Origin: an uncultured Prochlorococcus sp.
GTDB lineage: Bacteria > Cyanobacteriota > Cyanobacteriia > PCC-6307 > Cyanobiaceae
Assembly (NCBI GenBank): GCA_902558895.1
Contig: CACEFS010000011.1
Span: 1-39,794, forward strand
Reading direction: 5' to 3'
DNA length: 39,794 nucleotides
Part shown: positions 10,884 through 39,787 of the stretch, one piece after another
Numbering within the stretch: position 1 is the stretch's first letter
How the letters are laid out: every line of letters begins with the position of its first letter
Translations under genes and position numbers: made by a program
Notes under the pieces: model-generated
The model's input: the letters and a program-made list of their open reading frames with translations, nothing else
Database searches by the model: none
Told to the model about the DNA's origin: nothing

Positions 10884-10884
10884 A

Positions 10885-17832: not shown

Positions 17833-20232
17833 TCATTTATCTATCCATTGAAAAAATCTTTGGTTTGCTCTCTTTATTTTTAAAAATATTGATTTTAAAA
17901 GAGGATTAGAAGCTAAAAAATTATTCAATTTTTTATTTGAAAAATCTTCTAAATCATCAACTTCATATGATTTCTTATCATATTTATCAGAATTTTCTAT
18001 ATATTCAGAATACGTATATTGATACGCTCCATATCCGTATTTATAGTTATAACCATATCCATATTTTCCAGCGGAAAAGGATTTCTCCTCAGGTTTTTCC
18101 ATATTATTGGCTAAAACCCCCAGTATATTACCTCCACTTAATTTTATACTAGAAACACTTTCCATAGGCATTTTTCTATTTACATAAGAAATACCAATTA
18201 TAAGAACAATTCCATCAACATTTTCTGCAAGAATAGAAACATCAGATAAACCCAAAATTGGAGGCAAATCGAGAAGTATATAATCATAATTACTATCATT
18301 ACGCAGTTGATTTATAAGTTTTTTCATTCGTTCAGAACCCATTAATCTGGTTGAATCAGGGGGTATAGGACCCGATGTAACTAAATCAATCTCAGAAAAA
18401 TTGGGACATTTTTGTATAATTTCTTCAAACTTTTGATTTGGGTCAGTTAGATAATTGGACAAGCCTTTGAGATTATTTATTTTTAACCTTTTGTGAATAG
18501 ATGGTTTCCTCATATCCGAGTCTATTAATAATACTTTTTGTCCTAGATCTGCAAGGGTTTTCGCAAATAATAAATTCAAAAGAGATTTACCTTCTTTAGG
18601 AATAGAACTTGTAATAGCAATAACCTTTAATTTATTTTCGCTTTCTACAAATCTTAATGAAGTAAATAAACTTCTTAATGACTCTTGATAAAAAAATCTT
18701 TGATAAACATTATCCTTTGAATCTTTTTGTGACTTTTCTGAAAATTCTTCTAAAAATATATCAACTTCATCCCTAACATTTTTAAAATTTTTAATAAATG
18801 GAATACTTCCTAAGATGGGAAGTCCTAAATCTTCTTGTATTTCTTTAGTAGAATGAAAAACATAATCCATTCTATCTCTAATTAGTGCAAAAAATAATCC
18901 TAAAAATAGTCCATAAAAAAGACCTAAAATTAAATTCCTAGCAATTGATGGTTTTATTGGCTTATCAGACATCACTGGATCAGCTATTATTCTCCAAGGG
19001 AAGCTTGCTTGAGCCATTTCTAATTGAAACTTTTCTCTTGCAGATAATAGGCTATTTAAATTCTGGTTAGAAATTTCTAATCTCTGTTTTAAATTATTAA
19101 ATTCTTTTATCAATGAAGGCTTTTTAAAAAAATTATTTTTAATAGTGTCCTTTTGTTCATTTTTTGTTTTTATTTGAGAGGCAGCCAAATCTAATGCAAT
19201 ATCAACAGCATTTAATTGATTTTCAATAAATAAAGGTCTTATTTCTTCTACTCTTTTTTTTAAACTTCTTATTACTTTTGAGTCCTTTGTATACTTAGTA
19301 CTTGCCTTTGCAAGTTCAGTTTCTAAAGTTATCAATGTGGATAGTAAACCTTGATCAACATCTGTGAAGACTAATCCTCCAGATGATTTTTCAGGGCTTT
19401 TTACAATATCCTGAAAACTTCTAGCTGTTAATTTGCCATTCACGATTTGTTCCCTAACATCCAAAAGGCGCTTTTTATTACTTTCAAGTTCTAAAATATT
19501 CTTATCAAGCTCCATTTCTTGCTCTTTAAGTTTTATTCCTTCTTGTGTTGGTTCAATAAGTGAATATTTTTTTCTGAATGTTTCAAGCTGGTTTTCTAAT
19601 TCTCTATTTTTATACTGAATTGTAGGTGCTTGATTATTTAGAAATTCCAAGCCATCACTAATTTTGCGTTGTTTTTGTTGTAAAGCTGATTCTAAATATT
19701 TTCTACTGAGGTCCCTTAAAATTTTTAAACCCTTTAATTTATTATTTGTTCTTAAATTTACTTTTAAAATACCGTCAGCTCTTCTTCGATCTATGGTGAT
19801 ACTCTCAATAAATACATTTTTTGATAATTTTTCATAAGTAATAGAGTGTTTTCTTGCTATATCTTCCAGTAATAAAGGACTTTTGAGGAGTGTTATAAGC
19901 GTCGGTATGTCATTATCAGTTGTATTTTTTGCAATATTCTCTAAAGCTGAATCATTAAATTCTAATTTCCTATTGCCTGATGAAAGAGGATCACTAATTA
20001 ACAAAGAGAATGTTCCTTGATAAGTAGGTTTAAATATTCTTGTAAAGACAGTTTGGACAGAAATAAAACTAAAGACAACAAATATGGTTACAGTAATTAA
20101 TTTTTTTCTTCTTTTACATACCTTTATAAATTCATCTATATTAAAACCACTATCAATAGTATTGTTATCTGAATTTCCATATTTTTCTCTACTTGATGGA
20201 AAATTTTTATCTTGATTTCTTAGCTCATCCAT
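17833..20232 (-). CDS. Wzc-like polysaccharide co-polymerase / BY-kinase
   Basis: This 799-residue inner-membrane protein combines a chain-length-control domain with a bacterial tyrosine kinase. The Wzz-type N-terminal domain begins after the first membrane helix (about residues 45-62); residues 190-410 are a long coiled coil; the second helix is at about 433-451 (NLILGLFYGLFLGLFFAL). The cytoplasmic kinase has Walker A ITSSIPKEGKS (about 540-550), Walker A' VLLIDSDMRKP (about 567-577), and Walker B YDYILLDLPP (about 649-658). About a dozen tyrosines cluster from residue 724 to 756, the autophosphorylation tail. It is divergent from the Wza-like gene, with 148 bases between them. Confidence 0.93.
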   Translation of the reverse strand: MDELRNQDKNFPSSREKYGNSDNNTIDSGFNIDEFIKVCKRRKKLITVTIFVVFSFISVQTVFTRIFKPTYQGTFSLLISDPLSSGNRKLEFNDSALENIAKNTTDNDIPTLITLLKSPLLLEDIARKHSITYEKLSKNVFIESITIDRRRADGILKVNLRTNNKLKGLKILRDLSRKYLESALQQKQRKISDGLEFLNNQAPTIQYKNRELENQLETFRKKYSLIEPTQEGIKLKEQEMELDKNILELESNKKRLLDVREQIVNGKLTARSFQDIVKSPEKSSGGLVFTDVDQGLLSTLITLETELAKASTKYTKDSKVIRSLKKRVEEIRPLFIENQLNAVDIALDLAASQIKTKNEQKDTIKNNFFKKPSLIKEFNNLKQRLEISNQNLNSLLSAREKFQLEMAQASFPWRIIADPVMSDKPIKPSIARNLILGLFYGLFLGLFFALIRDRMDYVFHSTKEIQEDLGLPILGSIPFIKNFKNVRDEVDIFLEEFSEKSQKDSKDNVYQRFFYQESLRSLFTSLRFVESENKLKVIAITSSIPKEGKSLLNLLFAKTLADLGQKVLLIDSDMRKPSIHKRLKINNLKGLSNYLTDPNQKFEEIIQKCPNFSEIDLVTSGPIPPDSTRLMGSERMKKLINQLRNDSNYDYILLDLPPILGLSDVSILAENVDGIVLIIGISYVNRKMPMESVSSIKLSGGNILGVLANNMEKPEEKSFSAGKYGYGYNYKYGYGAYQYTYSEYIENSDKYDKKSYEVDDLEDFSNKKLNNFLASNPLLKSIFLKIKRANQRFFQWIDK

Positions 20233-23428: not shown

Positions 23429-24199
23429 ATGAAAGCAGTTATTCTTGCAGGAGGTTTGGGCACTCGACTGAGTGAGGAGACACATTTGAAGCCTAAGCCT
23501 ATGGTTGAGATTGGTGGAAAGCCTATTATTTGGCATATCTTAAAAATTTATAGCTTCTATGGAATAAATGAATTTATTATTTGTTGTGGTTATAAAGGTC
23601 ATCTAATAAAAGAATATTTCTCTAATTATTTCCTTTATACGAATGATATTACTCTTGATATTGCAAATAATAAAATAGAAACACTTTCTAAAAATTCTGA
23701 AAAATGGAAAATTACATTAGTTGATACTGGTGAGAATACATTAACAGGAGGAAGATTAAAGCGAGTTAGCGATTACCTAGATGAAGATGAATCGTTCTGT
23801 TTCACATATGGTGATGGAGTATCCAATATAGATATCAAAGAGTTAATATCATTTCATAAAAATGAGGGAAGAATAGCAACATTAACTGCCGTTCAACCTC
23901 CAGGCAGATTCGGCCAAATAGCCTTTCAGAGAGGTAAAGTACTTGCTTTTGAGGAAAAACCAAAAGGTGATAATAATTGGATAAATGGTGGTTTTTTTGT
24001 ACTTAATAAAAAAGTCATAGACCTTATTGAAGGAGATCAATCAATTTGGGAACAAGAACCGCTCAAAAATTTAGCCAAAAGCGGTCAATTATCTGCCTTT
24101 CACCACAAAGGTTTTTGGCAACCAATGGATACTTTAAAAGATAAAATACTACTAGAAGAACTATGGAACAATGGTAAAGCCCCTTGGAAAGTATGGTAA
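23429..24199 (+). CDS. rfbF: Glucose-1-phosphate cytidylyltransferase
   Basis: RfbF makes CDP-glucose from glucose-1-phosphate and CTP, the first step to CDP-linked dideoxy or branched sugars. The N-terminal signature AVILAGGLGTRLSEETHLKP and KPMVEIGGKPIIWHILKIYS is diagnostic, followed by FCFTYGDGVSNIDIKELI, VQPPGRFGQI and INGGFFVLNKKV. Length of 256 is typical. It is preceded by a long palindrome, and its 3' end overlaps the rfbG start by 7 bases. No E1/RfbH-type dehydratase for 3-deoxygenation is found in this window. Confidence 0.96.
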   Translation: MKAVILAGGLGTRLSEETHLKPKPMVEIGGKPIIWHILKIYSFYGINEFIICCGYKGHLIKEYFSNYFLYTNDITLDIANNKIETLSKNSEKWKITLVDTGENTLTGGRLKRVSDYLDEDESFCFTYGDGVSNIDIKELISFHKNEGRIATLTAVQPPGRFGQIAFQRGKVLAFEEKPKGDNNWINGGFFVLNKKVIDLIEGDQSIWEQEPLKNLAKSGQLSAFHHKGFWQPMDTLKDKILLEELWNNGKAPWKVW

Positions 24200-25305
24200 A
24201 AATTAATAATAAATTTTGGCAAAACAAAAAAGTTTTTATAACTGGGCATACAGGTTTTAAAGGGGCTTGGTTAACTTTATGGCTAAGAATGCTTGGAGCT
24301 AAAGTTTTTGGTTATTCATTGGAGGAAGTAAGCTCTGAAAATTTATTTAACGAACTTTACTCAAATAAAGTTAAATATTTTAAAACAGACTTCTATCATC
24401 ATATTGGCAATATCCTTGATCAAGAAAAACTAAATAACACCATAAAAGATTTTCAACCTGAAATAGTTATTCACTTGGCTGCTCAAGCATTAGTTAGAAA
24501 AAGCTATAAAGAACCAATTAAAACATGGGAGACTAATGTAATGGGTTCAATAAAGGTATTAGAAAGTTTAAAAAATCTGCAAAATAATTGTGCCGTTGTA
24601 ATGGTAACAACTGATAAAGTTTACAAAAATAATGAATGGATATATGGCTATAGAGAAAATGATAGGTTAGGAGGAAATGATCCCTATAGCGCAAGCAAAG
24701 CTGCATGCGAAATAGCAATAGATAGCTGGAGAAAAAGCTTTTGTGGAAATTTTAAACATCAAACAAATAAGTTAAAAATTGCGACAGCAAGATCTGGAAA
24801 TGTTATCGGTGGAGGTGATTGGTCTGAGGATAGAATAATTCCTGATGCAGTAAGAGCTTTAAAAGAAAAGAAACCTATAATTATTAGAAATCCGCACTCG
24901 GTAAGACCATGGCAACATGTTTTGGATCCTTTATCAGGTTACTTAAAATTAGCTGAATTATTAACAATTAACAATAATATAAATATTGATTTATGTACTA
25001 GTTTCAATTTTGGGCCTCATCAGCAAAACCAAATAAAAGTATCTGAACTGATAAATATGATTTTAGGATATTGGCCTGGAAGATGGGAAAAAGAATCACT
25101 TTCTGACAAACTTGAAGAGTCAAAACTTTTAACTTTAGAAATAGAGAAGGCAAAAAGTTTCTTAAAATGGGAACCAACTTGGGATTTAAAGTCAACTGCA
25201 TCTCATACAATTAATTGGTATAAAAAATATTCTTTAGAAGGAATTAATGCATTTGAATGTTGCAAAAAAGACATAGAAGATTTTCAATTGGATCAAATAG
25301 AATAA
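24193..25305 (+). CDS. rfbG: CDP-glucose 4,6-dehydratase
   Basis: RfbG converts CDP-glucose to CDP-4-keto-6-deoxyglucose. The NAD motif is VFITGHTGFKGAWLTLWLRM, with HLAAQALVRKSYKEPIKTWE, the TTDKVYKNNEW loop and catalytic YSASKAACE. Length of about 370 is typical. I chose ATG 24,193 rather than the in-frame TTG nine bases upstream. It gives VKINNKFWQNKKVFITG, the usual leader, and a 7-base overlap with rfbF. Its 3' end is 9 bases from the convergent glycosyltransferase stop. Possible consumers of its product are the ThDP enzyme and C-methyltransferase in the distal operon. Confidence 0.95.
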   Translation: MVKINNKFWQNKKVFITGHTGFKGAWLTLWLRMLGAKVFGYSLEEVSSENLFNELYSNKVKYFKTDFYHHIGNILDQEKLNNTIKDFQPEIVIHLAAQALVRKSYKEPIKTWETNVMGSIKVLESLKNLQNNCAVVMVTTDKVYKNNEWIYGYRENDRLGGNDPYSASKAACEIAIDSWRKSFCGNFKHQTNKLKIATARSGNVIGGGDWSEDRIIPDAVRALKEKKPIIIRNPHSVRPWQHVLDPLSGYLKLAELLTINNNINIDLCTSFNFGPHQQNQIKVSELINMILGYWPGRWEKESLSDKLEESKLLTLEIEKAKSFLKWEPTWDLKSTASHTINWYKKYSLEGINAFECCKKDIEDFQLDQIE

Positions 25306-25314: not shown

Positions 25315-26616
25315 TTAAATGGATTTATTAATAATATTTAGATATTTTTTTGTAATAATTTCTGGTGTAGCATTTTCAAGTAAAAATGATCTTGCTTTTT
25401 TTCCTAATTTCAACTTTTCACTTGAATTACTTTTCAAGTAATTTATCCATTCTGAAAGACCTTTACTATCGCCATTTCTAAAACATTTGCCAAAATCATT
25501 TTTGCAAATTATATTATTCAAATAAGAGTTAGATGAACTTACTCCAGCTATTGGAGTTGAAGCTGCTAAATGACCATAAAGTTTTGATGGAGCTATTGTT
25601 CCATCAGTGTTTTCTAATTGAGTTACAAGTGCTAAATCTGCTGAGGCTAAAGAATAAGGTAAAACAGATAATGGCTGGCTGGGAAGAAAAGTCACGTTGA
25701 ACAGATTATTATTTTTACAAAAATTCTTTAATGGAAGTATCCGTGGTCCTGAACCTATAAAGAGAAACAAAATATCATCATCATTTTTAAGTTGATAAAC
25801 ACTTTCTTGAATTGTTTCTATATCATGGCACCTTCCAAAATTGCCGGAATACATTACTACAAATTTATTTTTTAAATTATGATCATTTACAAAGAAATTA
25901 TCTTTTTTGGGAATTGGCTTTATTATCTTTGCATCAACCCAACTATAAATTATTGAAATTTTATCTTCATCTAAGTTTTTATAAGAATGTAGAATTTTAC
26001 TTTTCATATGCTCACTTAATACAATTAAATTATCAGACTTTTTATATACAATATGATTTATAAATCTCCAAAACTTTATTAAAAAAGAATCAACCGAGAG
26101 TGTTTTTGTATTTACCAAAATATCTGGATACAAATCATATAATATAAATATAAAAGGTTTTCTAAAAATAAAAAAAACTAAATATGCCAAGAAAGTCATA
26201 AAAGGTGGTTCAGTAGTAAAAATAAATAAATCAATTTTTGAACCAAAAGATTCCTTTATTAACTTCAAGATAAAATTTAGCGAAAATATTAAACTATTTA
26301 TGGTTTTACCTTTAATTGTCCTAGGAAAGATCCTAGATGTATTTGAACGAATTATTAGTCTCGATCCATCTCTTTCCCTAGAAGGAGCTTCTTTAATATC
26401 ATAAGAATAAGAGGGCTGACCAGTAAATATTATAAAATTTAAACTTTTAGTTGCTATTCTCTTAGTTAAATCATCTAAAAGTTGACCAGTTGCAGCATAA
26501 TCAGGAGGAAAATATTGATTTACTAAAGCTATATTTTTTTTAAGTCTTTTTGAAGATACATTTTTGGGAATTTTTTTTATTTTTTTTCTAAAAAAAATAT
26601 TCTTTAATCTTTTCAT
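25315..26616 (-). CDS. GT4-family glycosyltransferase (WbuB-like)
   Basis: This is a two-Rossmann (GT-B) retaining glycosyltransferase acting at the cytoplasmic membrane face. The N-terminal block YFPPDYAATGQLLDDLTKRI is typical of WbuB-type enzymes that move sugars such as fucosamine derivatives. A central hydrophobic stretch (about residues 130-155) is common in this group. The C-terminal domain shows VVMYSGNFGRCHDIETIQ, LFIGSGPRI and the donor region APSKLYGHLAASTPIAGV. ATG 26,616 is preferred over an adjacent TTG. The sugar is not predictable from sequence. Confidence 0.88.
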   Translation of the reverse strand: MKRLKNIFFRKKIKKIPKNVSSKRLKKNIALVNQYFPPDYAATGQLLDDLTKRIATKSLNFIIFTGQPSYSYDIKEAPSRERDGSRLIIRSNTSRIFPRTIKGKTINSLIFSLNFILKLIKESFGSKIDLFIFTTEPPFMTFLAYLVFFIFRKPFIFILYDLYPDILVNTKTLSVDSFLIKFWRFINHIVYKKSDNLIVLSEHMKSKILHSYKNLDEDKISIIYSWVDAKIIKPIPKKDNFFVNDHNLKNKFVVMYSGNFGRCHDIETIQESVYQLKNDDDILFLFIGSGPRILPLKNFCKNNNLFNVTFLPSQPLSVLPYSLASADLALVTQLENTDGTIAPSKLYGHLAASTPIAGVSSSNSYLNNIICKNDFGKCFRNGDSKGLSEWINYLKSNSSEKLKLGKKARSFLLENATPEIITKKYLNIINKSI

Positions 26617-26808
26617 CAATAACTTATTAATAAATCAATACTATGATATTGAGTATCTCTTTATAAATAAGATTTATAATATTTAATTAAAAAATATTAT
26701 CAAGATTTAATTATATGATTTTAAATTTTATATTTCGTTTAATGCAATTAATAAATTTAGTTTTATTAATAAGAGCAATTTTTTCTAATAATATTTTTTA
26801 AATATTTT

Positions 26809-27699
26809 CTATATTTTTAAATCAATGTCTAATATTTTCTTAACTGAATAGTTTAATGATTTTTTATTTTTTTTGGAAAAATAATATACTTCAAAAATTT
26901 TAACGTCTACTAAGATTCGATACCAAAAAGATTGCATAAAATGAAAAATAAATCCTTTCTTACCATCAAGAAATCCTAATCTAATGAAGTATCTATAGAT
27001 AAAATAAATTAGGGGTCTCAAAAAAAATGGTAAATTTGAATAAATATTATTCTTCAAAATAACAACTAATGGTAATTTGTTTTTTCTAGTTTTTTTGTTA
27101 TCTAAATTATTCTTTCTTAATTTAATCATTTCCACAGCTTCTTTACTTGCATAGGAATTATGTTTACTTATCCAAAATGTAAATGGCTTAAGTGAATGAT
27201 CATAAATGCTACCTTTAAAGTTTATCTTTTTACCTTTTACTAATAAATGTTCATCCATTAATCTATCCTCACACATAGCCTTTTTGGGGCGAACAAGTCT
27301 CATTGTTTTTCTCTCATAACAAGAACCATGCCTTATGGTTTTACCTAAAAAAACTATATTTCTATTTACATATATACCTTCTATATTTTCTTTCACCCTA
27401 GGTAAAGAAAATAACAATTCTGATTTCAAATTTTCAGAAATAATTTCATCGGCATCTATTCTTAATAACCATTGTGCTTCAAATTCAAGTTTTTTTAAAG
27501 ACCAATTTAATTGATTTGCATGATTATCAAAAGGTCTATACAATACTTTAGCACCCATATTCTTAGCAATAGATGTAGTCTTGTCGGTGGAATATGAATC
27601 TACGATATATATTGATTTTGTAACACTAAGGCATGACTCTAAACATCTTTTAATATGAATTTCCTCATTAAATGTCATAATTAAAATTATTAAATTCAT
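26809..27699 (-). CDS. GT2-family glycosyltransferase (WaaE/KdtX-like)
   Basis: A GT-A fold inverting glycosyltransferase of 296 residues. The start LIILIMTFNEEIHIKRCLES and the YIVDSYSTDKTTSIAKNMGA block are the nucleotide-binding half. The metal-binding motif is LLRIDADEII. The C-terminal half, rich in aromatic and basic residues (FFLRPLIYFIYRYFIRLGF, LDGKKGF), is the pattern of LPS-core-type enzymes that sit on the inner membrane. It is divergent from the Wzy-like gene across 72 bases. Donor and acceptor are not known. Confidence 0.88.
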   Translation of the reverse strand: MNLIILIMTFNEEIHIKRCLESCLSVTKSIYIVDSYSTDKTTSIAKNMGAKVLYRPFDNHANQLNWSLKKLEFEAQWLLRIDADEIISENLKSELLFSLPRVKENIEGIYVNRNIVFLGKTIRHGSCYERKTMRLVRPKKAMCEDRLMDEHLLVKGKKINFKGSIYDHSLKPFTFWISKHNSYASKEAVEMIKLRKNNLDNKKTRKNKLPLVVILKNNIYSNLPFFLRPLIYFIYRYFIRLGFLDGKKGFIFHFMQSFWYRILVDVKIFEVYYFSKKNKKSLNYSVKKILDIDLKI

Positions 27700-29017: not shown

Positions 29018-30007
29018 CTAAGAATTAATTAAATTAAGAATATGTTCTCTATAATTTGACTTTATAATATTAAGATCAAATTTATTTTTAATCTTATTAG
29101 AAATTTTTGGAGCAATATAAATCCATTTTTCTAAAAATTTATGTAAATCCTCGCAATTAGTTTCACTTTTTAGCTCGACATAGCAACAGTAATCAATGAT
29201 TGAGACCGCTTTTTGATATAAGATTATTAAAGGGGTGCCTATACAAAGTGTTTCAATAATCGGTAAACCAAAGCCTTCGTCTCTAGATGGTAGAAACAAA
29301 AAATCTGCCTTAGAATATAGAGATATTAACTCTTCATTACTAACATTAACAAGACAAGATAATTTTCCTTGATCTATTAATTTTTTCCAACTACTAATTT
29401 CTTTTTTTGTAAATGCAGAACCAACGCAAATTAGATTAAAGTTTTTTATTTTGCTATCACATAAAGCTTTCAAACCCTCATCAAAATTCTTTTCTCCATT
29501 TCGTTTCCCAACATAAAGAAATAAAAACTTATCTTTACTTTTAAGATTGGGAATTTTTGGCTTAAACTCAATATAGTCTGAAGGTAGAGGATTTAAAATT
29601 ACACAACACTTATTTATTAAATTCGGATAAAACTCTGAGAATTCATTAAATGTCTTATCTGAAACGCATACGATTTTATCAGCCGAAAGATATGATAAAT
29701 ATATATAAATACGCTTTAAAAGACTTCTTAATCCTATCTTTCTTTCTTCCATCAAATCATGGCAAACACATAAGCTTAAGCCAGGACCAATTTTAATTGT
29801 GTGATAAGAATTTAAATAAAAATCATCTTTTATTGCATAAATAAATCTAGATGGTTTTGAGATCTCAATATCATCGCCCAAAAAGTTTTCAGGAATTTTA
29901 TTCCCTAATTTATTATTTTTATCAAAATCCAAAAGACTACTCCATAATGTAGTTATACCTCCTTTCTTTTGAATCCTAAATATTAATGGATTAAACTTAA
30001 ATTTCAT
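29018..30007 (-). CDS. GT4/GT1-family glycosyltransferase
   Basis: A 329-residue GT-B glycosyltransferase. The C-terminal nucleotide-sugar site is clear: FLFLYVGKRNGEKNFDEGLK, the FLPSRDEGFGLPIIETLCIG acidic/glycine region (E-x7-E type), and TPLIILY. The N-terminal domain is shorter than usual, beginning with FKFNPLIFRIQKKGGITTLW, and retains ICVCHDLME-type acceptor motifs (here LSLCVCHDLMEERKIG). It is separated by 200 bases from the next transferase gene and is convergent with the Wzy-like gene. Sugar specificity is unknown. Confidence 0.85.
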   Translation of the reverse strand: MKFKFNPLIFRIQKKGGITTLWSSLLDFDKNNKLGNKIPENFLGDDIEISKPSRFIYAIKDDFYLNSYHTIKIGPGLSLCVCHDLMEERKIGLRSLLKRIYIYLSYLSADKIVCVSDKTFNEFSEFYPNLINKCCVILNPLPSDYIEFKPKIPNLKSKDKFLFLYVGKRNGEKNFDEGLKALCDSKIKNFNLICVGSAFTKKEISSWKKLIDQGKLSCLVNVSNEELISLYSKADFLFLPSRDEGFGLPIIETLCIGTPLIILYQKAVSIIDYCCYVELKSETNCEDLHKFLEKWIYIAPKISNKIKNKFDLNIIKSNYREHILNLINS

Positions 30008-32071: not shown

Positions 32072-33115
32072 GTGTATTTACCTTTTTTTATATCTTTTTT
32101 CTTTACATTTTTAATTACTCCTTTAATAAATAGATTAAGTTCTTATTTTGGTTTATTAGATAAACCTGATGCTAGAAGAAGGCATGATAAACCCACTGCC
32201 AGATTAGGGGGGATAGCAATTTTTATATCATGTTTATTATCCTTATTATTATTAAATATTTTTGCATTTAACTTTTTTGAAATCAATAGTTCAGGTAATG
32301 CAACAAAGGATATATCAATATTCTTTTTTGGTTTGATTACTTATTTTTTAATTGGTTTATCAGATGATATTTATAGATTATCACCTTGGCCAAGGCTTGC
32401 AGCGCAGGGAATTATCGCAGCAATTATTTGGTTTTTAGGTTTAAGAATTGAAAGCTATGATTTTTTTATTTCAGGCAATTTAGATCCTTTTGTAAGTTTT
32501 TTCTTTACAATTTTTTGGATTATGGGTATTACTAATGCAATTAATTGGTTAGACGGACTAGATGGTTTAGCATCTGGTGTATCATCTGTTTCATTTGTAG
32601 GAATTGGGATAATTGCATTAAATAACAATAATATTTTGGTTGCCACCTTATCAGCCATTTTAGCAGGCAGTTGCGTAGGTTTTCTTTCTCTTAATTCTCA
32701 TCCGGCAAAAATTTTTATGGGTGATAGTGGTTCTTTTCTAATAGGTTTTTCATTAGCCTCTCTCTCTTTAATGGGATTCACTAATTATGAAAACAATATT
32801 GATTTTATACCTGTTTTAATTATTCTCTTCTTACCTATTATAGATATGATCCAAGTAATATTTGGAAGACTAATCAAGAGAAAATCTCCTTTTTTTCCTG
32901 ACAGAAGTCATTTACATTATAAATTAATTAATTTGGGCTTCAGTCAAAAACAAGTTTTTATTCTATATTTCTCAATAAGCATAATTCTATTATTAGCTTA
33001 TATGATTTCGGTAAAAATTAATTTCTCCTATGGCTTATTGGTAATTAATTTGATGCTAAATTTATATTTTTTAGTAAGAAATAATTTAAGGTTGAAGCCT
33101 AAATCAAAAAAATAA
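32072..33115 (+). CDS. WecA/TagO-like undecaprenyl-phosphate sugar-1-phosphate transferase (GTG start)
   Basis: This polytopic enzyme (347 residues, about 10-11 helices) starts glycan assembly by moving a HexNAc-1-phosphate from a UDP-sugar to undecaprenyl phosphate. Diagnostic motifs, in order, are DARRRHDKPTARLGGIAIF, the DDxxxx pair at Asp98-Asp99 (IGLSDDIYRL), NAINWLDGLDGLASG, HPAKIFMGDSGSFLIGF and the cytoplasmic DRSHLHYKLINLGFSQKQ. The ending DRSHLHYKL separates WecA/TagO types from MraY. Start is GTG at 32,072. Its stop is 11 bases from the convergent SDR-HAD gene's stop. It probably makes the lipid-linked first sugar for the chains built here. Confidence 0.93.
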   Translation: MYLPFFISFFFTFLITPLINRLSSYFGLLDKPDARRRHDKPTARLGGIAIFISCLLSLLLLNIFAFNFFEINSSGNATKDISIFFFGLITYFLIGLSDDIYRLSPWPRLAAQGIIAAIIWFLGLRIESYDFFISGNLDPFVSFFFTIFWIMGITNAINWLDGLDGLASGVSSVSFVGIGIIALNNNNILVATLSAILAGSCVGFLSLNSHPAKIFMGDSGSFLIGFSLASLSLMGFTNYENNIDFIPVLIILFLPIIDMIQVIFGRLIKRKSPFFPDRSHLHYKLINLGFSQKQVFILYFSISIILLLAYMISVKINFSYGLLVINLMLNLYFLVRNNLRLKPKSKK

Positions 33116-33126: not shown

Positions 33127-34428
33127 TTATTCAGAAAGAAAATTTGGAGAGATTAACTTATCATCAATATAGAAATCTGCACTAGGCTTTCCAAATTTTA
33201 ATAAATGATATTTAAGTCCCCAATCTTTAAATCTCTCTTTAGTTAATTTACTCCAATCAATACCAGACTCATACCCCCTAGCAGTAAATAAAATGATCTC
33301 GTTTCCTTCATCATAGAGTTTATTAATTCCTTTTATATTATCAAGCAATGGTTTTGATTTACTATAGTCATTGTCATCTATAAGAGTACCAATGATACCA
33401 TCTATATCAATTACATATTTTTTCTTTTTAGGTATGTTTAAAGACCATTCTTTAAGAAATTCTTTTTGGCATAAAAATTGATCCTTATCTTCAAAATTAA
33501 TTATTTTTGTATAGTAATCCTGAATTATTTGATCAATTGATTCTGCCCAAGGTCTCAAATATTCATGAGTTTTTTTCATGCAGGGTACATAGTTTCTCCT
33601 CAAGACTTTATTATTTTCTTTAATTTCTTTATCAAAAATTAATTCGCTTTTTGTCAAGATAGCTATTTTCTTTGCAATTTCTAAAATACTAATTACCTCG
33701 GTTCCACCAATATTATAAGTACCTGGCGGAATATCATTTTTAAAAATAAATGACAATAAATAATGACTTAAACCTCTTGAAGAAAGATAAGTTCTTTTAG
33801 ATAAACCATCACTATTGAGAGTTATTTTTTTACTTTCTAAAGATGATTTAAAAAATGAAAAAATTGCAGAATGAGATTTTTTAAAATCAGGAGAAGCAAA
33901 TGAAAAAAGTCTTAAATTATAAGTATTTTTAAAATTTGTAGAAAAATAGTTTTCTTGAAATGCCTTTGCAAGGCCATAATAATCAGAACAAGCATTTAAA
34001 TTAAATTGACTTAAACAATTTTTCTCACTTAGTATTTGGCTTTCATTTAAAGCACCATATACTGCTCCAGAACTTACAAAAATAAGCTTCTTGCAATTAG
34101 AAATCTTTGTTAAATATAAAATTCTTTCTGTTGATATGGATACTGTTCTAAATAGTTTACTGGGTGATTTAAAAGCTTGTTTATTAGTATCAGCTGCAGC
34201 ATGAAATATAATATCTATAGAAACTTTTGGAAACGTCATTTTTTCCAAATCTCCAACAATTATCTTTGCCTTTAATTTTTTTAATAAGAAAGATATTTCC
34301 AAATCAAGATTAATAGGATCTCTACAAAGAACATAGAAGTTATATTTCCTATATTCCGCATTATTTAAAAGAGATCTCAATAATGATTTTCCTAAAAAAC
34401 CAGTGCAGCCTGTAAGGAAAATATTCAT
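33127..34428 (-). CDS. Fusion of NAD(P)-dependent sugar epimerase/reductase and HAD phosphatase
   Basis: Residues 1-310 form an extended SDR: TGCTGFLGKSLLRSLL, then SSGAVYGALN, the catalytic Tyr151-x3-Lys155 (YYGLAK), and GTYNIGGTEVISILEIAKK. Residues 335-433 are a small HAD-like domain with motif I VIDIDGIIGTL (Asp341, Asp343), motif II ILFTARG (Thr382), and motif III Lys414 with ADFYIDDK (Asp422-Asp423). All catalytic positions appear present. Stand-alone HAD proteins of this type are common in capsule clusters, usually separate from an SDR. Start ATG shares a base with the upstream methyltransferase stop (TAATG). Reaction and substrate are unknown; sugar-phosphate dephosphorylation and ketosugar reduction are inference. 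Confidence 0.82.
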   Translation of the reverse strand: MNIFLTGCTGFLGKSLLRSLLNNAEYRKYNFYVLCRDPINLDLEISFLLKKLKAKIIVGDLEKMTFPKVSIDIIFHAAADTNKQAFKSPSKLFRTVSISTERILYLTKISNCKKLIFVSSGAVYGALNESQILSEKNCLSQFNLNACSDYYGLAKAFQENYFSTNFKNTYNLRLFSFASPDFKKSHSAIFSFFKSSLESKKITLNSDGLSKRTYLSSRGLSHYLLSFIFKNDIPPGTYNIGGTEVISILEIAKKIAILTKSELIFDKEIKENNKVLRRNYVPCMKKTHEYLRPWAESIDQIIQDYYTKIINFEDKDQFLCQKEFLKEWSLNIPKKKKYVIDIDGIIGTLIDDNDYSKSKPLLDNIKGINKLYDEGNEIILFTARGYESGIDWSKLTKERFKDWGLKYHLLKFGKPSADFYIDDKLISPNFLSE

Positions 34429-35600
34429 TATTTTATATTTATTTGGTCAAAAAGCTCAGAATATTTAAGAATATGCCTTATGCCCATCTCATAAGCAACT
34501 TTAGCAAGATATTCTTCAGAAGATCTTGCAAGAATAACACATACATTTGGTTCATTAACTCTTAAATAATCTGGATGATCTATTCTGAAACCATTACTTG
34601 CATCTAATTTTCCATACATATGAGTATCAACAAGCATGTAAACATCATTTTTTGATAAATTTCCATATTTCACTAAAGAATCAAAAATTCTATTAGCTCC
34701 CCAATAAGCTACTTTTTGTTTTTTTGCTAAAGGAGATAATTTCAGTTCAACTATTTTCTTAAGAATTTTTCTATTTTCTGGAATTATAGATTTATATCGA
34801 TTAATCTTTGGAAACATTAGTACAGCTTTTTCTTGTTTTAAATTTATTTTCTTTAAACCTTTTTTAAATAATATTTTTATGTTATAGATATCACTTTCAA
34901 AGTTTCTGACAACTTCAAATCCATTTTTTTGTGCAAGATTTATAAGAGTAGTATATGAGAAATGGAAAGAGTGTTTATCAATGAAAAATTCTTCTACACC
35001 TCTATTATCTTCAATAATATTAATTTCTGGTACTTCTACATACATAAGTCCATTTTCTGATAATACTTCATAACTTTTTCTAATCATTTCATCAGCGGAA
35101 TTAGCATGTTCCAGTGTTTGACATGAATATATGAAATCATATTTTTTATGAAATTTTACATTTTCAAATTTCTCCCAAATAACTTCTAAATTTGATGCTT
35201 CATAATAATCAACATATTCACTTTGCAAAGTCCTATCAGGCTCTACACCAGAAACAAAATTAACATAATTTTTAGTTAGGATAAATTTGATAAAGTCCCC
35301 TCTATTTGAACCTATATCGAGAATATTTTTAGGTTTAAATGCATCTAAGATTGGTTCTAAATATGACTTAGCATCTGTGAACCTAATACCTTTACCATGT
35401 CTTACATTACCCCAATTGGCATCTGTGCTTATTGTTTTTTTAATTCCAAGATTTTTTGAATTATAAAGATTATATTTCGTCTGAACTAAAGCACATGATT
35501 CACATATAAAAACTTCTGCACCTCTTTGAGATTTTATGGGAGTATAAAAACTTAAAAGTTTATCAAAAGTTTTACAACTGTCACAAAATAATTTTTCCAT
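34428..35600 (-). CDS. Zinc-finger class I SAM C-methyltransferase (Methyltransf_13/14 type)
   Basis: This 390-residue enzyme has the three-part layout of sugar C-methyltransferases such as those making TDP- or CDP-linked branched sugars. An N-terminal zinc-binding domain carries Cys6, Cys9, Cys33 and Cys36. The SAM-binding fold begins with NILDIGSNRGDFIKFI (about 92-107) and has YSCQTLEHANSADEMIRK. The C-terminal domain contains VAYWGANRIFDSLVKYG and HMYGKLDASNGFRI, a Methyltransf_14-like part. It adds a methyl branch to a keto-sugar carbon in known members. The gene starts one base after the sulfotransferase stop and ends within the SDR-HAD start, so coupling is tight. Confidence 0.87.
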   Translation of the reverse strand: MEKLFCDSCKTFDKLLSFYTPIKSQRGAEVFICESCALVQTKYNLYNSKNLGIKKTISTDANWGNVRHGKGIRFTDAKSYLEPILDAFKPKNILDIGSNRGDFIKFILTKNYVNFVSGVEPDRTLQSEYVDYYEASNLEVIWEKFENVKFHKKYDFIYSCQTLEHANSADEMIRKSYEVLSENGLMYVEVPEINIIEDNRGVEEFFIDKHSFHFSYTTLINLAQKNGFEVVRNFESDIYNIKILFKKGLKKINLKQEKAVLMFPKINRYKSIIPENRKILKKIVELKLSPLAKKQKVAYWGANRIFDSLVKYGNLSKNDVYMLVDTHMYGKLDASNGFRIDHPDYLRVNEPNVCVILARSSEEYLAKVAYEMGIRHILKYSELFDQINIK

Positions 35601-35601
35601 C

Positions 35602-36447
35602 CTAATAATTTATTAAGGGTAGTTTTTTTTCAAGATCATATCCATATTCAGACCCTTTTTCTTCACAAATTCTTTTTAAAATTGTTTCTTGATTCTTTGT
35701 ACAGTTAAATTCCAATGGGAGGAAAACATTTCTTGGTTTTTGAAGAAAATCAAAATAATAATTAGTAGGATCCAAATCTAAAAATTCTAATAATAGATTC
35801 AATGCTTCTTTTGATTTTACCAATTCTTCCAGCTTAAAAACAGAATATCTATCTTTGGAAATCTTTAAAAGAGAACTATCTATACATTTATTAATTTCGA
35901 GCCAATGTCTGCATACTTTTTCAAATCTTGATAAAGATATTTCATTTTCATCAATAATACTATTGTTAGTTTTCAATTTCCACCAATACTTTTTTTCTAA
36001 AGGAGGGATTTCATTTTTATTCATTCCATTATTTATCCAACCGGCCAAACATCTTACGGATTCATCATCGTACATTTCTTCTCTTAATTTATAGTAAAAA
36101 CTTGGTACGACTCTCCTAGGATCTCTTATTAAATGAATAAATCTTGAATCTGGAAAAACCTCGGCCAAAATATCAATAATCCATGATGCTTTATTAGATG
36201 AATCTAACCATATTTCTTTTCTTGAATAATTTATAGCTGAAAAATAATGTCGAAAAACTTCTTCTTTACATTCTTCTTTTGAGATACAGCCCATAGAATA
36301 CAAACAAGATATTTTTTGAATGTTCTCGCACATATATTCATGATGGGCTTCAATTTTTGAATTCCCTCGTAACATTCGAAAAATAGACCTAGTCCCATTT
36401 CTTCCACTTCCAACTATAAACAAAGGTTTAGAATGAGTAAATTTCAT
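35602..36447 (-). CDS. PAPS-dependent sulfotransferase-family protein
   Basis: The N-terminus LFIVGSGRNGTRSIFRML contains the 5'-phosphosulfate-binding loop (GSGRNGTRS, residues 13-21). FIHLIRDPRRVVPSFY (about 103-118) is the 3'-phosphate-binding segment, including Arg108 and Ser116. This is the P-loop sulfotransferase fold, which moves sulfate from PAPS to a hydroxyl or amine. Length of 281 is normal. Members in surface-glycan loci often sulfate sugars; the target here is not known. Its start overlaps the ThDP gene stop by four bases (ATGA), and it ends one base before the methyltransferase start. PAP formed could be cleared by the CysQ-like enzyme at 5,917. Confidence 0.84.
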   Translation of the reverse strand: MKFTHSKPLFIVGSGRNGTRSIFRMLRGNSKIEAHHEYMCENIQKISCLYSMGCISKEECKEEVFRHYFSAINYSRKEIWLDSSNKASWIIDILAEVFPDSRFIHLIRDPRRVVPSFYYKLREEMYDDESVRCLAGWINNGMNKNEIPPLEKKYWWKLKTNNSIIDENEISLSRFEKVCRHWLEINKCIDSSLLKISKDRYSVFKLEELVKSKEALNLLLEFLDLDPTNYYFDFLQKPRNVFLPLEFNCTKNQETILKRICEEKGSEYGYDLEKKLPLINY

Positions 36448-38288
36448 AATCCTTCTTCTTTTCTTGCCTTAATACTTTTTTCAGATAGCTTACAATATAG
36501 GAGAGAACTCTCTAAATCATCCATTTCAAGAAGAGGACTCATATCTTCAATGGGCATAGATGTCATATTTCCATCTTCCTCTTGAATTGCAGCAACTTTG
36601 GGCCATAATTTTTCATTCTCAATTAAATTAACATCAATTAATATTTGTTCAGGTGATAGTAAAAATTTATCTAGCAAATGAAAATTACTTTTATTTATAG
36701 CTACATAGTTTAATCCATAAGAATTACAAATTTCTTTTAAATCTGGCATAAATAACTTACTTTTCTTATCAGAACCCACTCTATTACCTTTAAAATATCC
36801 ATCTTGGGTTACTCTAATTGAAGTATATCCATTATTATTTAAAACTATAATCTTAAAGTTTTGATTAATTTGTGAAAGAGTAGCAAATTCTTGTATGTTT
36901 AGTTGTAAACTTCCATCACTTTCTATAAGAAATTTATTTTTATATCGATTCGAAAAACATCCTCCTATGAATGCTGGCAATCCATAGCCCATTGCTCCTA
37001 AACCTGAAGTTAATAATATTCTCTGATTTTTTTTATTTTTAAATCCAGTATAAAAAGACTCAATTGCGAGTCCAGAACTTCCAGTAACTATAAGACTATT
37101 TTCAGGTATCAACTCTCCAAGTGAATCGATAATTTCAAAATGGGTAATATGATTTTTATTGCTTGGAATATCTCCATCACAAATTGAAAATTTATTTTTG
37201 AGATATACGCAATGATTTTGCCAACTCTCAAATGGTTGCAAACTTTCCTTTTTCAGAAGATATTCTGCTACCATCTTGAAGTTACAACATATTTTATTTG
37301 CCTCCAGTAATTTACATTCATTCAACTGAGATTGATCTATATCAATAACGTATTTTTTTAAGGCATTTCTTGCAAAATTTAATGGGTCATAAGCGGTAAC
37401 AATATTATCTAGTCTTGCTCCAAAGGAGATAAAAATATCTGAAGCTTGGATTGCAATATTTGGAGCTCTTAGGGCGACATTCCCAGGCTTTCCTATATAG
37501 AGATTATGATCAAACGGCAATAAATCAGAGGAGTTCCAAGTAAATACAGAAGGTAAAGATAAGTGATCTATTAATTTACTTACTAGATTATATGAGCCGG
37601 ATAACCTACAACCATGACCAAATAATGCAATAGGTCTTTTTGAAATTTTTAGTTTTTGATAGAAGTCATCTAAACAATTCTTTGTTTCTTGTGTAAGTTC
37701 TTTTGTTAATCCTATATTCTCAAGCTTACTATTAGAAAAACTCTCTAGTTGATTCCATTCGGGTATTTTCGCAGCTTGAACATCTAAGGGTATATCAATC
37801 CAGACGGGGCCTTTTCTCCCCTCATTCATAAGGTAAAAAGCCTTTTCCAAGTGGTATCTTATTTTTAATGGATTTAATACTGTGATCGCATATTTAGAAT
37901 GATTTTTTACCATTTCAATTATATTTACTTCTTGAACTCCTGATTGCCTTATTCCAGCATCAGCTTTCATAATATCTGGTGTTTTAACTTGACCAGAAAA
38001 AACAATTAAAGGAACCGATTCTATCCACGCTCCAACAAAAGGTGTAATTATATTAGTAGCCCCTGGTCCAGTGGTTACCAAAGCAACACCAGGTTTTTCT
38101 TCAATCCTACCGTAATATTCTGCTGCGATTCCAACTGCTTGTTCATGATGCATTGGAATATACCTTAAATTCTTGTTTCTTCCTAAAGAATCTACCAAAT
38201 GCATAGCTCCGCCCCCTGGGAGCATAAAAACTTGAGAAATATTTTTATTAGCTATAAATTCAAATACTAAATCACTCAACTTAATCAC
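36444..38288 (-). CDS. ThDP-dependent acetolactate-synthase-like enzyme (YerE-like)
   Basis: This 614-residue enzyme has the three-domain layout of ALS/pyruvate-oxidase ThDP enzymes. The catalytic glutamate is in MHHEQAVGIAAEYYGR (Glu49). The pyrophosphate motif reads ESDGSLQLNIQEF then LNNNGYTSIR, so GDG-x-NN has Ser for the first Gly (Ser457). The tail PKVAAIQEEDGNM with MPIEDMSPLL is the pattern of sugar-cluster ThDP proteins such as YerE, which adds a two-carbon unit from pyruvate to CDP-ketosugars. I place the start at GTG 38,288, which shares one base with the neuB-like stop (TAGTG), rather than TTG 15 bases upstream; it gives the standard VIKLSDLVFEFI. Substrate is inferred. Confidence 0.83.
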   Translation of the reverse strand: MIKLSDLVFEFIANKNISQVFMLPGGGAMHLVDSLGRNKNLRYIPMHHEQAVGIAAEYYGRIEEKPGVALVTTGPGATNIITPFVGAWIESVPLIVFSGQVKTPDIMKADAGIRQSGVQEVNIIEMVKNHSKYAITVLNPLKIRYHLEKAFYLMNEGRKGPVWIDIPLDVQAAKIPEWNQLESFSNSKLENIGLTKELTQETKNCLDDFYQKLKISKRPIALFGHGCRLSGSYNLVSKLIDHLSLPSVFTWNSSDLLPFDHNLYIGKPGNVALRAPNIAIQASDIFISFGARLDNIVTAYDPLNFARNALKKYVIDIDQSQLNECKLLEANKICCNFKMVAEYLLKKESLQPFESWQNHCVYLKNKFSICDGDIPSNKNHITHFEIIDSLGELIPENSLIVTGSSGLAIESFYTGFKNKKNQRILLTSGLGAMGYGLPAFIGGCFSNRYKNKFLIESDGSLQLNIQEFATLSQINQNFKIIVLNNNGYTSIRVTQDGYFKGNRVGSDKKSKLFMPDLKEICNSYGLNYVAINKSNFHLLDKFLLSPEQILIDVNLIENEKLWPKVAAIQEEDGNMTSMPIEDMSPLLEMDDLESSLLYCKLSEKSIKARKEEGL

Positions 38289-39787
38289 TAAAAAATTCTC
38301 CAATGTGTTAAGTAAGTTTTTCTGTTTTTATTTTTGTGGATTTCTTCATCAGTATAAAAAGAATCTTCTTTAATATGGGTCGAAGAAATTTCCTCAATAA
38401 CAATACCATTCTCTGTACTAAAAAAGTGTCTTGTTTCTGGTTCTACAATAATTACATCGCCAACATTCATTTTGCGACTCTCATCGTTGAGAATTATAGT
38501 TCCTTCTCCCCAAAGGACATGAAAGGTCTCTTCTTTTTGCTTATGGTATTGTTCTGGATGGGATTGACCAGGTAGAAGTATTAAAATTTTTTTACAATAT
38601 TCTCTATTAACTACAGTAATCATAGTTAGGCCAAATTTTAAAAATTGTTCAATCCCATAATGATGAGATATTTCAAGGTCTGCAAATTTAGGGAATGTAA
38701 TTTTTGACTCTTTTAGAAGAGCTACTACTTTTGTGGCAATCTCTAAAACTTTTACTCGAGAATTTTCGAGATTTACTCTTTCCAAGAAAACAGGTTCATC
38801 TTTAAAAATATCTTCTTTTAATGAATAATGTTTGTATTTACTTAAGTTGTTAGCTGTTAATTGATTTTCTGAAGGAGGAAAGGCAAAATAAATATCATCA
38901 GCACTAATTATATCACCAACTTTTAAGTCTTTCTTTGCAAAGACTCCTCTTTGCAATTTCCTTAAGCTATCAGATTCGTTACTAGAAGGACTATATCTAA
39001 ATTTTGATTCACCCATTATTTCGATTGATTTAGATAATTGTTTTATCCAATTTAAAAATTCTTCTGGAGAAGTCGAATATTTATTTTTTTTGATATTTTT
39101 CGTTTCTACAGCAACATGTTTTTCAAAAGACCGAGCCCCAAGTGCTAATGCCAATGGAGCAATATCTATAGAAGAAGGATCTTCATGAGAAGAAAAACCT
39201 ATATCAATATTGGGGAATTTATTTTTTAAATAATTAACTTGGGCTACATTAAGATTTTCATAGGGAGTAGGATACTCCCCAACACAATGCTGTAATAAAA
39301 AATAGATATTTCTATTTTGAAAGAATGAAACAACTTGTTCTACAACTTCTTCATTAGCGCCGGCGCATGATGCAACAACTTTCTTATTACAACTAGCAAT
39401 TTTCTCTAATAAAGGCCAATCCCCAAATGAACAACTTGCTATTTTTATAAAATCTACATCATGTTCAACAAGAGTATTAACTGAGTTCTCATCAAAAGGG
39501 GTTACCATCGTTCCCATTTTTTTTAAATTACAAAAAGAAATAAGTTCTTTAAATTCATCCTTTGAAAGTTTAGTCTCGGAAAATCTTTTGATAAGAGGAA
39601 TTGTAAAATCACCTGCCATATCTTTTCTGATAAACGTATCTAAATCCCTGTATTGAAATTTAAAAACGAAATCAAATTGATCTTTATAATTTTTACAAAT
39701 TTCAGAATAAGTATCTATGATTTTTTTTCCATGGCTTAAATCTCCTGAATGATTATTAGCCATTTCTAAAATTATTAACGGTTTCAT
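38288..39787 (-). CDS. NeuB-family sugar acid synthase fused to SAF and cupin domains
   Basis: NeuB enzymes condense PEP with a HexNAc or related sugar to give nonulosonic acids. The N-terminal TIM barrel has EMANNHSGDLSHGKKIIDTY, KFQYRDLDTFIRKDMAG, TPFDENSVNTL, HCVGEYPTPYENLN and IGFSSHEDPS, with FEKHVAVETK near residue 222. An SAF domain is at about 280-340 (RGVFAKKDLKVGDIISADDI). A cupin domain follows at about 370-475 (LLPGQSHPEQYHKQKEETFH, then GEGTIILNDE and VEPETRHFF), with His410, His415 and Glu420 as possible metal ligands. The whole is 499 residues against ~345 for normal NeuB. ATG 39,787 is the start. It is the first visible gene of the operon. NeuC and NeuA homologues are not in this window. 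Confidence 0.88.
   Translation of the reverse strand: MKPLIILEMANNHSGDLSHGKKIIDTYSEICKNYKDQFDFVFKFQYRDLDTFIRKDMAGDFTIPLIKRFSETKLSKDEFKELISFCNLKKMGTMVTPFDENSVNTLVEHDVDFIKIASCSFGDWPLLEKIASCNKKVVASCAGANEEVVEQVVSFFQNRNIYFLLQHCVGEYPTPYENLNVAQVNYLKNKFPNIDIGFSSHEDPSSIDIAPLALALGARSFEKHVAVETKNIKKNKYSTSPEEFLNWIKQLSKSIEIMGESKFRYSPSSNESDSLRKLQRGVFAKKDLKVGDIISADDIYFAFPPSENQLTANNLSKYKHYSLKEDIFKDEPVFLERVNLENSRVKVLEIATKVVALLKESKITFPKFADLEISHHYGIEQFLKFGLTMITVVNREYCKKILILLPGQSHPEQYHKQKEETFHVLWGEGTIILNDESRKMNVGDVIIVEPETRHFFSTENGIVIEEISSTHIKEDSFYTDEEIHKNKNRKTYLTHWRIF

Follow-up and report, generated by a model that had tools for sequence, protein, structure and literature searches.

A NeuB-isomerase fusion beside a YerE-like carboligase in Prochlorococcus: a candidate donor module for long-chain C-branched deoxy sugars

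Introduction

YerE-like enzymes, which depend on thiamine diphosphate (ThDP), join alpha-keto acids to cytidine diphosphate (CDP)-4-keto-3,6-dideoxyglucose (PMC12247030). YerE prefers pyruvate, which is also accepted by JanthE, ErwE favours functionalised (hydroxylated) donor chains longer than C4, and MygE, when benzaldehyde is the acceptor, takes donors of C3-C8; MygE has been tied to the gastriose of Mycobacterium gastri, and MMAR_2332 of Mycobacterium marinum to caryophyllose (PMC12247030). Caryophyllose is a 4-C-(1,3,4,5-tetrahydroxyhexyl) dideoxyhexose, the branch of which is deoxy at C2' (PMC5706390). In Shewanella oneidensis the genes sfmA-D code for NeuB, a ThDP enzyme, a short-chain dehydrogenase/reductase (SDR) and a methyltransferase, and deletions showed that without them flagellin is not modified normally; part of this modification is a C9H16O7 unit bearing one or two additional CH2 (PMC3765264). 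The subject of this work is a five-gene operon of an uncultured Prochlorococcus sp. (assembly GCA_902558895.1, contig CACEFS010000011.1), which encodes a NeuB-isomerase fusion, a ThDP enzyme, a sulfotransferase, a methyltransferase and an SDR fused to a HAD phosphatase. The stretch analysed, hereafter the window, is an entire contig of 39,794 bases (G000:C11) belonging to a 1.15-Mb assembly of 70.5% completeness.

Judging from gene families and linkage, the operon quite probably makes a long-chain C-branched deoxy sugar, with NeuB supplying the donor of the branch. Such a pathway would resemble those of yersiniose A (YerE) and erwiniose (ErwE) in the ThDP-dependent carboligation of an alpha-keto acid to CDP-3,6-dideoxy-4-keto-glucose, and would differ from them in the donor, which in those systems is pyruvate or a hydroxylated 2-oxo acid (PMC12247030). 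A first-pass annotation had presented the five genes as the strongest candidate for an undescribed system; this term was too strong, since the YerE-like class is known for C-branched sugars and a relative of the core occurs in M. gastri, a reported gastriose maker (PMC12247030).

Results

The gene nearest the contig end, neuB, codes for a fusion protein of 499 amino acids. Residues 1-339 (positions 38,771 to 39,787; like the other four genes of the operon on the minus strand) constitute a NeuB-type phosphoenolpyruvate (PEP)-dependent ulosonate synthase with a SAF domain (Pfam NeuB, 1.3e-40, and SAF), and residues 340-499 (38,288 to 38,770) a D-lyxose-isomerase-like cupin domain (Pfam Cupin_2, 1.3e-10). 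The NeuB and SAF fold of sialic and nonulosonic acid synthases was recognised by Pfam, by the matching solved structures and in the predicted model. The best solved match of the NeuB half was 3g8r with 303 bits, other NeuB/PseI/SpsE entries scoring 64-86 bits, and its predicted model superposed on 3g8r at 1.5 Å. The entry 3g8r, which bears the title putative spore coat polysaccharide biosynthesis protein E, comes from Chromobacterium violaceum; it is near-identical to the NeuB half of a fusion from another Chromobacterium record (L067), and its chain of 350 amino acids does not cover the isomerase domain.

The window fusion scored below the NCBIfam cut-offs for NeuB (141.6 vs. 399.65 bits) and PseI (128.8 vs. 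340.25 bits). Meningococcal NeuB contacts the N-acetyl group through Arg314, a residue that appears in the titles of 4ipi and 4ipj; in the mapping from the 4ipi alignment it corresponds to Phe303 of the window protein. Across 83 aligned fusion rows this position was F in 51, I in 26, M in four, W in one and a gap in one; Arg was not found. For the C-terminal 160 residues the best solved matches were D-lyxose isomerases (2y0o, 5.6e-10; 7nzo, 2e-9), and the predicted cupin model matched 7nzq/2y0o at 1.7-2.0 Å over about 170 columns. The His/His/Glu/His metal ligands (H410, H415, E420 and H454) are kept in 80-82 of the 83 rows. By family, the cupin domain is a putative aldose-ketose isomerase. 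The model of the whole fusion had a predicted template modelling score of 0.63, and the relative placement of the domains in it is uncertain. Searches of phage and plasmid sequences with the fusion yielded no record covering 80% of the query, the matches listed corresponding to the NeuB half only.

The second gene (36,444 to 38,288) encodes the ThDP enzyme (Pfam TPP_enzyme N, C and M, 4.4e-31, 1.1e-20 and 2.3e-18). Its best solved match, aligned over residues 7-602, was 8rph (286 bits vs. at most 223 bits for acetohydroxyacid synthases, AHAS), which is the YerE-like enzyme JanthE (PMC12188165). JanthE joins alpha-keto acids to ketones. The NCBIfam acetolactate synthase score was under the cut-off (277.3 vs. 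538.35 bits), and contig C4 carries a separate ThDP gene, 29% identical to the operon enzyme, which was taken as ilvB. An identity as the acetolactate synthase of amino acid synthesis was rejected on the grounds of the low NCBIfam score, the closer match to JanthE than to AHAS and the separate gene on C4. An alignment of 79 ThDP enzymes (77 loci, the window and genome G034) showed the catalytic Glu in 78 rows. The XDG ThDP-binding motif, usually GDG, was SDG in 56 rows, including the window, GDG in 21, TDG in one and a gap in one; JanthE also has an odd first residue in this motif, CDG (PMC12188165, PMC12247030). We classify the enzyme as a predicted YerE-like carboligase, which would add an acyl anion to a ketone.

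All five open reading frames (ORFs) of the first-pass annotation were found again where it had placed them, and so were its four junctions: a 1-base overlap between the SDR and methyltransferase genes (34,428), a 1-base gap between the methyltransferase and sulfotransferase genes (35,601), a 4-base overlap between the sulfotransferase and ThDP genes (36,444-36,447) and a 1-base overlap between the ThDP gene and neuB. The last holds provided that the ThDP gene starts with the GTG at 38,288. The mechanical ORF start is a TTG at 38,303, with which the overlap would be 16 bases; we prefer the GTG because it matches the start of the relative in locus L032 (MIKLSDLVFEF / MPRLADAVFEF). The start of neuB lies 7 bases from the contig end, thus the sequence upstream of neuB is unreadable.

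A scan with an alignment of the cupin domain, one genome being taken per species, gave 360 confirmed relatives, and the best 80 of these by cupin similarity were studied as loci with flanks of up to 10 kb. They span cyanobacteria, proteobacteria, mycobacteria, Nitrospiraceae, Chlorobiaceae, Chloroflexi and others; other close fusions are held by Prochlorococcus sp. AG-363-M17 and P. marinus MIT 9314. Genes were counted by tblastn with fixed score limits, since ORF picking misassigned the strand of some genes in GC-rich loci. The loci are not independent: L038 is a contig that also occurs in G008, and the cluster proteins that were compared between L045 and L046 agree at 100%. A ThDP gene was present in 77 of the 80 loci, in all 77 on the NeuB strand, and the spacing between the matched stretches was at most 200 bases in 60 and at most 1 kb in 75 of them. 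The CDP-sugar genes rfbH, rfbF and rfbG were found in 61, 54 and 52 loci, respectively, and at least one of them in 65. Where at least 8 kb could be read upstream of neuB (55 loci), all three occurred in 37 and at least one in 48. The other counts were SDR 60, related methyltransferase 41, NUDIX 34, HAD 31, radical-SAM (S-adenosylmethionine) 30 and sulfotransferase 2. The co-occurrence of the five families, which the first-pass annotation had proposed as a check, is thus real and not limited to one strain.

The link to CDP-sugars was also seen among 149 genomes of the genus, the window's own included. RfbG was above the cut-off in 35 of them, namely in all seven with the ThDP enzyme (E<=1e-65) and in 28 of the 142 others (Fisher 2.4e-5, ignoring shared descent). 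RfbG is likewise encoded in the genomes from which L039 and L041 come.

It can be asked whether the ThDP enzyme uses pyruvate, giving a two-carbon branch, with NeuB acting in a separate step. The preference of YerE for pyruvate and its acceptance by JanthE (PMC12247030) would fit such an arrangement, which is nevertheless improbable in view of the adjacency of NeuB in 77 of 80 loci and of signs of shared inheritance: the pairwise distances of NeuB and ThDP enzyme correlate at 0.77 over 76 loci, a value that shared descent alone could partly yield. Other YerE-like loci, moreover, carry another module beside the ThDP gene, which could make an alpha-keto acid or alter the sugar. Addition or removal of a two-carbon unit by the ThDP enzyme, as suggested earlier, is probably not what happens; the neighbouring genes and published work point to transfer of the complete chain after decarboxylation.

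Ordinary neuB genes are common in the genus: a NeuB match at 1e-20 was found in 35 of the 149 genomes, only five of which have the ThDP enzyme. From the 36 other NeuB places, three fusions and G034 being set aside, 20 with 4-20 kb readable each were taken as controls; 15 had a CMP-transferase-like gene (CMP, cytidine monophosphate), although some of the 15 matches are weak or KdsB-like, and none had the ThDP gene. With two queries (E<=1e-3), no CMP-transferase-like gene was detected in the window or in the 80 fusion loci, so that the NeuA-like companion that the first-pass annotation proposed to look for did not turn up; both queries were taken from the genus of the window, so the controls are favoured and distant CMP-transferases could be missed. 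These counts bear on an alternative in which the NeuB product is the sugar itself, a nonulosonic or octulosonic acid activated by CMP, and in which a different residue is modified by the ThDP enzyme and the remaining gene products. The presence of a NeuB domain agrees with this, as does one fusion clustered with a CMP-transferase (in G041, see Discussion), but the contrast between 0/80 and 15/20, the NeuB and PseI scores below the cut-offs, the absence of Arg314 and the tight ThDP coupling make it quite unlikely.

A classical sialic or pseudaminic acid route was rejected, as no CMP-transferase-like gene was found with the two queries and Arg314 is not kept.

A third explanation takes its model from S. 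oneidensis, where NeuB, ThDP enzyme, SDR and methyltransferase are encoded by sfmA-D and the flagellin unit is C9H16O7 with extra CH2 (PMC3765264): a free polyhydroxy acyl group would be attached to an amino sugar. This reading of the mass data is ours, not that of the authors of PMC3765264, and it may hold for sfmABCDE. Compared by gene description, that operon differs from the window in having an ATP-grasp protein, in lacking a sulfotransferase among its five genes and in lacking CDP-sugar genes (PMC3765264). For the Prochlorococcus operon we consider a free acyl group very unlikely, since there is no ATP-grasp ligase among the five genes and the linkage to rfbF and rfbG points to a CDP-sugar.

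These two genes lie in the window on the plus strand: rfbF (23,429 to 24,199) encodes glucose-1-phosphate cytidylyltransferase (NCBIfam TIGR02623, 450.6 bits, cut-off 300.25) and rfbG (24,184 to 25,305) CDP-glucose 4,6-dehydratase, the predicted maker of the 4-keto acceptor (TIGR02622, 487.3 bits, cut-off 278.45). The first-pass annotation had named CDP-4-keto-6-deoxyglucose as a possible partner, a good guess made without noticing the pair at 23,429-25,305.

The third gene of the operon (35,602 to 36,447) encodes a sulfotransferase, by family of the 3'-phosphoadenosine 5'-phosphosulfate (PAPS) type (Pfam Sulfotransfer_3, 6.7e-12), for which no close relative was found among solved structures. 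The fourth (34,428 to 35,600) encodes a SAM methyltransferase (Pfam Methyltransf_23, 5.3e-16) whose C-terminal C-methyltransferase Pfam domain stays below the cut-off (16.3 vs. 23.5 bits). In a Foldseek search with its predicted model (pLDDT 81.5) ranks 1-18 were KijD1, MtmC and TcaB9; the protein is predicted to have the three-domain fold of sugar C3-methyltransferases, and O-methylation is possible too. The model would allow C3 of the 4-keto sugar, or the carbon beside the C1' ketone of the branch, as the methylation site. The fifth gene (33,127 to 34,428) encodes an NAD-epimerase type SDR (Pfam Epimerase/SDR, 1.3e-20) fused to a small HAD phosphatase (about 33,127-33,432). The HAD part matched the EcbF/BcbF-type NCBIfam model far under its cut-off (23.6 vs. 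162 bits), and its assignment is backed by a match to the solved capsule biosynthesis protein 9iqw (6e-11). In L032 sdr and had are separate adjacent genes. The SDR (33,127-34,428), found also in 60 of the best 80 loci, is a candidate for acting on the branch ketone, a role predicted from its family.

The order of the window genes recurs elsewhere. In Methylobacterium sp. WL119 (L113) the order is NeuB, ThDP enzyme, sulfotransferase, methyltransferase, SDR. A Nitrospiraceae metagenome-assembled genome (MAG; L042) has the same order, with a gene for a 205-residue protein without Pfam match between NeuB and the ThDP gene, and an adenosine 5'-phosphosulfate (APS) kinase gene between the methyltransferase and SDR genes; the product of APS kinase is PAPS. 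A set of 248 genomes from the family to which the L113 genome belongs contained two with the sulfotransferase (E<=1e-25), the L113 genome itself and G392. In G392 (L151) the order is rfbF-rfbG-NeuB-ThDP, then after about 1 kb the sulfotransferase, then the methyltransferase, and no SDR above the score limit was seen at the locus. In L042, L113 and L151 the sulfotransferase homologues (37-42% identity) lie downstream of the ThDP gene and are adjoined by the methyltransferase homologues (33-42%). One may suppose that tailoring genes with no common role came together by chance where surface-glycan genes vary, the ThDP enzyme being a spare acetolactate synthase, and the downstream genes do differ between L032 and the window. 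Yet the NeuB, ThDP, sulfotransferase, methyltransferase order is repeated in L113, L042 (with one inserted gene) and L151 (with the 1-kb interval), NeuB and ThDP pair in 77 of 80 loci, and the ThDP enzyme is closer to JanthE than to AHAS with a separate ThDP gene on C4, thus we regard this as extremely unlikely. Clustering by pure chance was rejected on the co-occurrence and spacing data.

In M. gastri (L046) the arrangement is rfbG-rfbH / rfbF-glycosyltransferase-NeuB fusion-ThDP-HAD-methyltransferase-FkbM methyltransferase / SDR, with rfbF, rfbG and rfbH over the NCBIfam cut-offs. This cluster shares with the window rfbF and rfbG, the NeuB-isomerase fusion, the ThDP enzyme, HAD, a methyltransferase and an SDR. 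It differs in having RfbH and two other methyltransferases, and its 20-kb locus gave no match to the window sulfotransferase; the window, in turn, has the sulfotransferase, the C-methyltransferase-like enzyme, the fused SDR-HAD and no visible 3-dehydrase.

Eight of 198 genomes from the genus to which M. gastri belongs gave a ThDP match at 1e-82, four being 85-100% alike and four at 36-39%; the genes of the latter occupy the corresponding position, next to rfbF/G/H and the same glycosyltransferase gene. In L152 and L154 a NeuB without isomerase domain, 68-69% identical to the G034 NeuB of the window's genus, stands beside the ThDP gene, and in L153 and L155 a dehydroquinate-synthase-like gene (Pfam was run on that of L153) and an SDR gene. 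The likeness between the G034 NeuB and these clusters suggests, as far as sequence identity goes, a long-distance transfer. In G108 and G090 (L144, L145) the ThDP enzyme is accompanied by an HMGL/DmpG aldolase, of a family of makers of 4-hydroxy-2-oxo acids, and an acetaldehyde dehydrogenase; in L144 conserved rfbF/G genes lie beside this module, and in G090/L145 the rfb genes are on other contig(s). Given these differing modules, the ThDP enzyme and its neighbouring module vary together while the CDP-sugar genes stay constant. The caryophyllose pathway of M. marinum resembles the predicted one in the YerE-like enzyme and the 4-C branch deoxy at C2' (PMC12247030, PMC5706390); a difference may lie in the other ThDP enzyme with an isomerase-less NeuB or dehydroquinate-synthase-like module, found at the matching position in the four genomes of the genus. 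A 2'-deoxy branch fits, because it is expected from a decarboxylated 3-deoxy-2-oxo acid.

Several further arrangements were observed. Locus L035 (G034:C3:58000-77900) has at 9240-19901 ThDP, SDR, dehydroquinate-synthase-like, plain NeuB, HAD and SDR genes beside rfbF/G/H, and also a 423-residue protein without Pfam match, kinase-like by eye. In L032 (13498-15474) and relatives (L044, L063, L067 and others) a radical-SAM/SPASM protein (30 of the 80 loci) and a 272-residue protein without Pfam match (18 of the 80) occur alongside NeuB-ThDP. In a Rhodocyclaceae MAG (L060, 11706-15035) an additional NeuB (27%) is neighboured by an additional ThDP gene, which is more distant (38%).

The rest of the island in the window contains surrounding glycosyltransferase genes (25,315-26,619, 26,809-27,699 and 29,018-30,007, all on the minus strand; Pfam Glycos_transf_1/2) and a gene for a WecA/MraY-type polyprenyl-phosphate sugar-phosphate transferase (32,072 to 33,115, plus strand; PF00953, 3.4e-37). 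At 9444-13892 UDP-glucose/GDP-mannose dehydrogenase, mannose-1-phosphate guanylyltransferase-type and GDP-mannose 4,6-dehydratase-type genes represent further nucleotide-sugar supply.

Discussion

The results above concern gene content, linkage, families, predicted folds and residues; the reactions, substrates and final structure given below are proposals. RfbF and RfbG, encoded elsewhere in the window, would produce CDP-4-keto-6-deoxyglucose, which in many relatives a 3-dehydrase would then convert to the 3,6-dideoxy-4-keto form. The isomerase-like domain would turn a ketose into an aldose, probably a pentose, from which NeuB, using PEP, would make a 3-deoxy-2-ulosonic acid; a five-carbon acceptor for NeuB fits, because the fused isomerase is of the pentose/hexose class. 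HAD would remove a phosphate, if one is present. The YerE-like enzyme would decarboxylate the alpha-keto acid and add the acyl carbanion to the C4 ketone, leaving a branch deoxy at C2', and the SDR would reduce the C1' ketone. Finally, the methyltransferase and the PAPS-dependent sulfotransferase would decorate the sugar, which would enter a surface glycan. The earlier idea of a sugar acid made by NeuB and a C-C bond formed by the ThDP enzyme gains support, and the product is probably, as also suggested there, a branched, methylated and sulfated higher sugar for the cell surface.

A number of observations weigh against this proposal. None of rfbF, rfbG and rfbH was found in 15 of the 80 loci, and three loci have no ThDP gene: L082 and L083, which are near contig ends, and L091, in which 4.5 kb downstream could be read. 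In L083 NUDIX and methyltransferase genes directly follow neuB, where the ThDP gene would stand. The genome G041 (L033), not among the seven ThDP-positive genomes, has a fusion (41%) with a CMP-transferase, HAD and a 2-hydroxyacid dehydrogenase. The fusion alone does not fix the pathway, because in G041 it is paired with a CMP-transferase and not with the ThDP enzyme. MygE was inactive on ketones in vitro (PMC12247030). It may also be that the donor step has already been assigned to NeuB in other published work. In the literature searched, NeuB and a ThDP enzyme were joined, among the matches listed, only in PMC3765264, on Shewanella, and the words NeuB, sialic, phosphoenolpyruvate and ulosonic are absent from the review PMC12247030.

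The locus of G041 (L033; G041:C1:1244000-1263900) contains at 12278-17320 the fusion, HAD, D-2-hydroxyacid dehydrogenase, cytidylyltransferase (Pfam) and Gfo/Idh-like (by eye) genes and no ThDP gene; its product is perhaps a related ulosonic acid used as a sugar.

An RfbH-like 3-dehydrase was not found in the window's genome, which is 70.5% complete and whose contig ends 7 bases before neuB; this, too, counts against the proposal. The sole DegT match of this genome is a Lys-type aminotransferase. Three related Prochlorococcus genomes have DegT proteins (L132, L133, L134) with His at the site of the pyridoxal phosphate (PLP)-binding lysine and without the RfbH cysteines. One His-type protein was scanned, and RfbH was its best NCBIfam model, under the cut-off (319.5 vs. 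423 bits). It is possible, on the roles that we take the PLP-lysine-site residue and the RfbH cysteines to have in DegT proteins, that the His-type proteins are Fe-S-free 3-dehydrases. The counterpart in the window's genome may lie beyond the contig end, because in L039 a His-type DegT gene is directly upstream of neuB. Without a 3-dehydrase the acceptor would be CDP-4-keto-6-deoxyglucose itself.

Gastriose is 3,6-dideoxy-4-C-(1,3-dimethoxy-4,5,6,7-tetrahydroxyheptyl)-hexose, with a seven-carbon branch deoxy at C2'. The branch equals 3-deoxy-octulosonic acid minus CO2, and its two methyls correspond in number to two methyltransferases. We infer that the ThDP gene of L046 is MygE (the next best ThDP gene of the M. 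gastri genome is 34% identical), and the dependence on this identification is a weak point. The first-pass annotation had held that the same families making a known sugar in one genome would speak against a new pathway. That is partly so: a relative of the core stands in M. gastri, for which gastriose is reported (PMC12247030), while the step from L046 to MygE is inferred.

On balance, we lean towards a broader view, that the fusion subfamily, which is widespread and which annotation would label sialic acid synthase, provides no surface sugar of its own and makes 3-deoxy-2-ulosonic acids purely as acyl-anion donors for dedicated YerE-like ThDP enzymes. Donor cassettes (NeuB-isomerase, plain NeuB, HMGL aldolase, dehydroquinate-synthase-like) would be swapped beside a constant CDP-deoxyhexose core, giving combinatorial long-chain C-branched sugars, of which the Prochlorococcus form would be sulfated. 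YerE-like branching is already known; what is new, as far as we searched the literature, is a donor module made of NeuB and isomerase, together with its wide occurrence, the exchange of modules and the sulfated form.

If true, the proposal gives a function to a widespread set of NeuB-isomerase proteins (360 cupin-domain relatives, of which the best 80 were studied) and to the structure 3g8r. It indicates where MygE and other YerE-like enzymes probably obtain the long donor acids that they need, opens the formation of gastriose-type sugars to direct tests with two or three purified enzymes, and offers new carboligases for tertiary alcohols. For the organism itself, a highly abundant phototroph of the ocean, the prediction is a branched sugar that carries sulfate.

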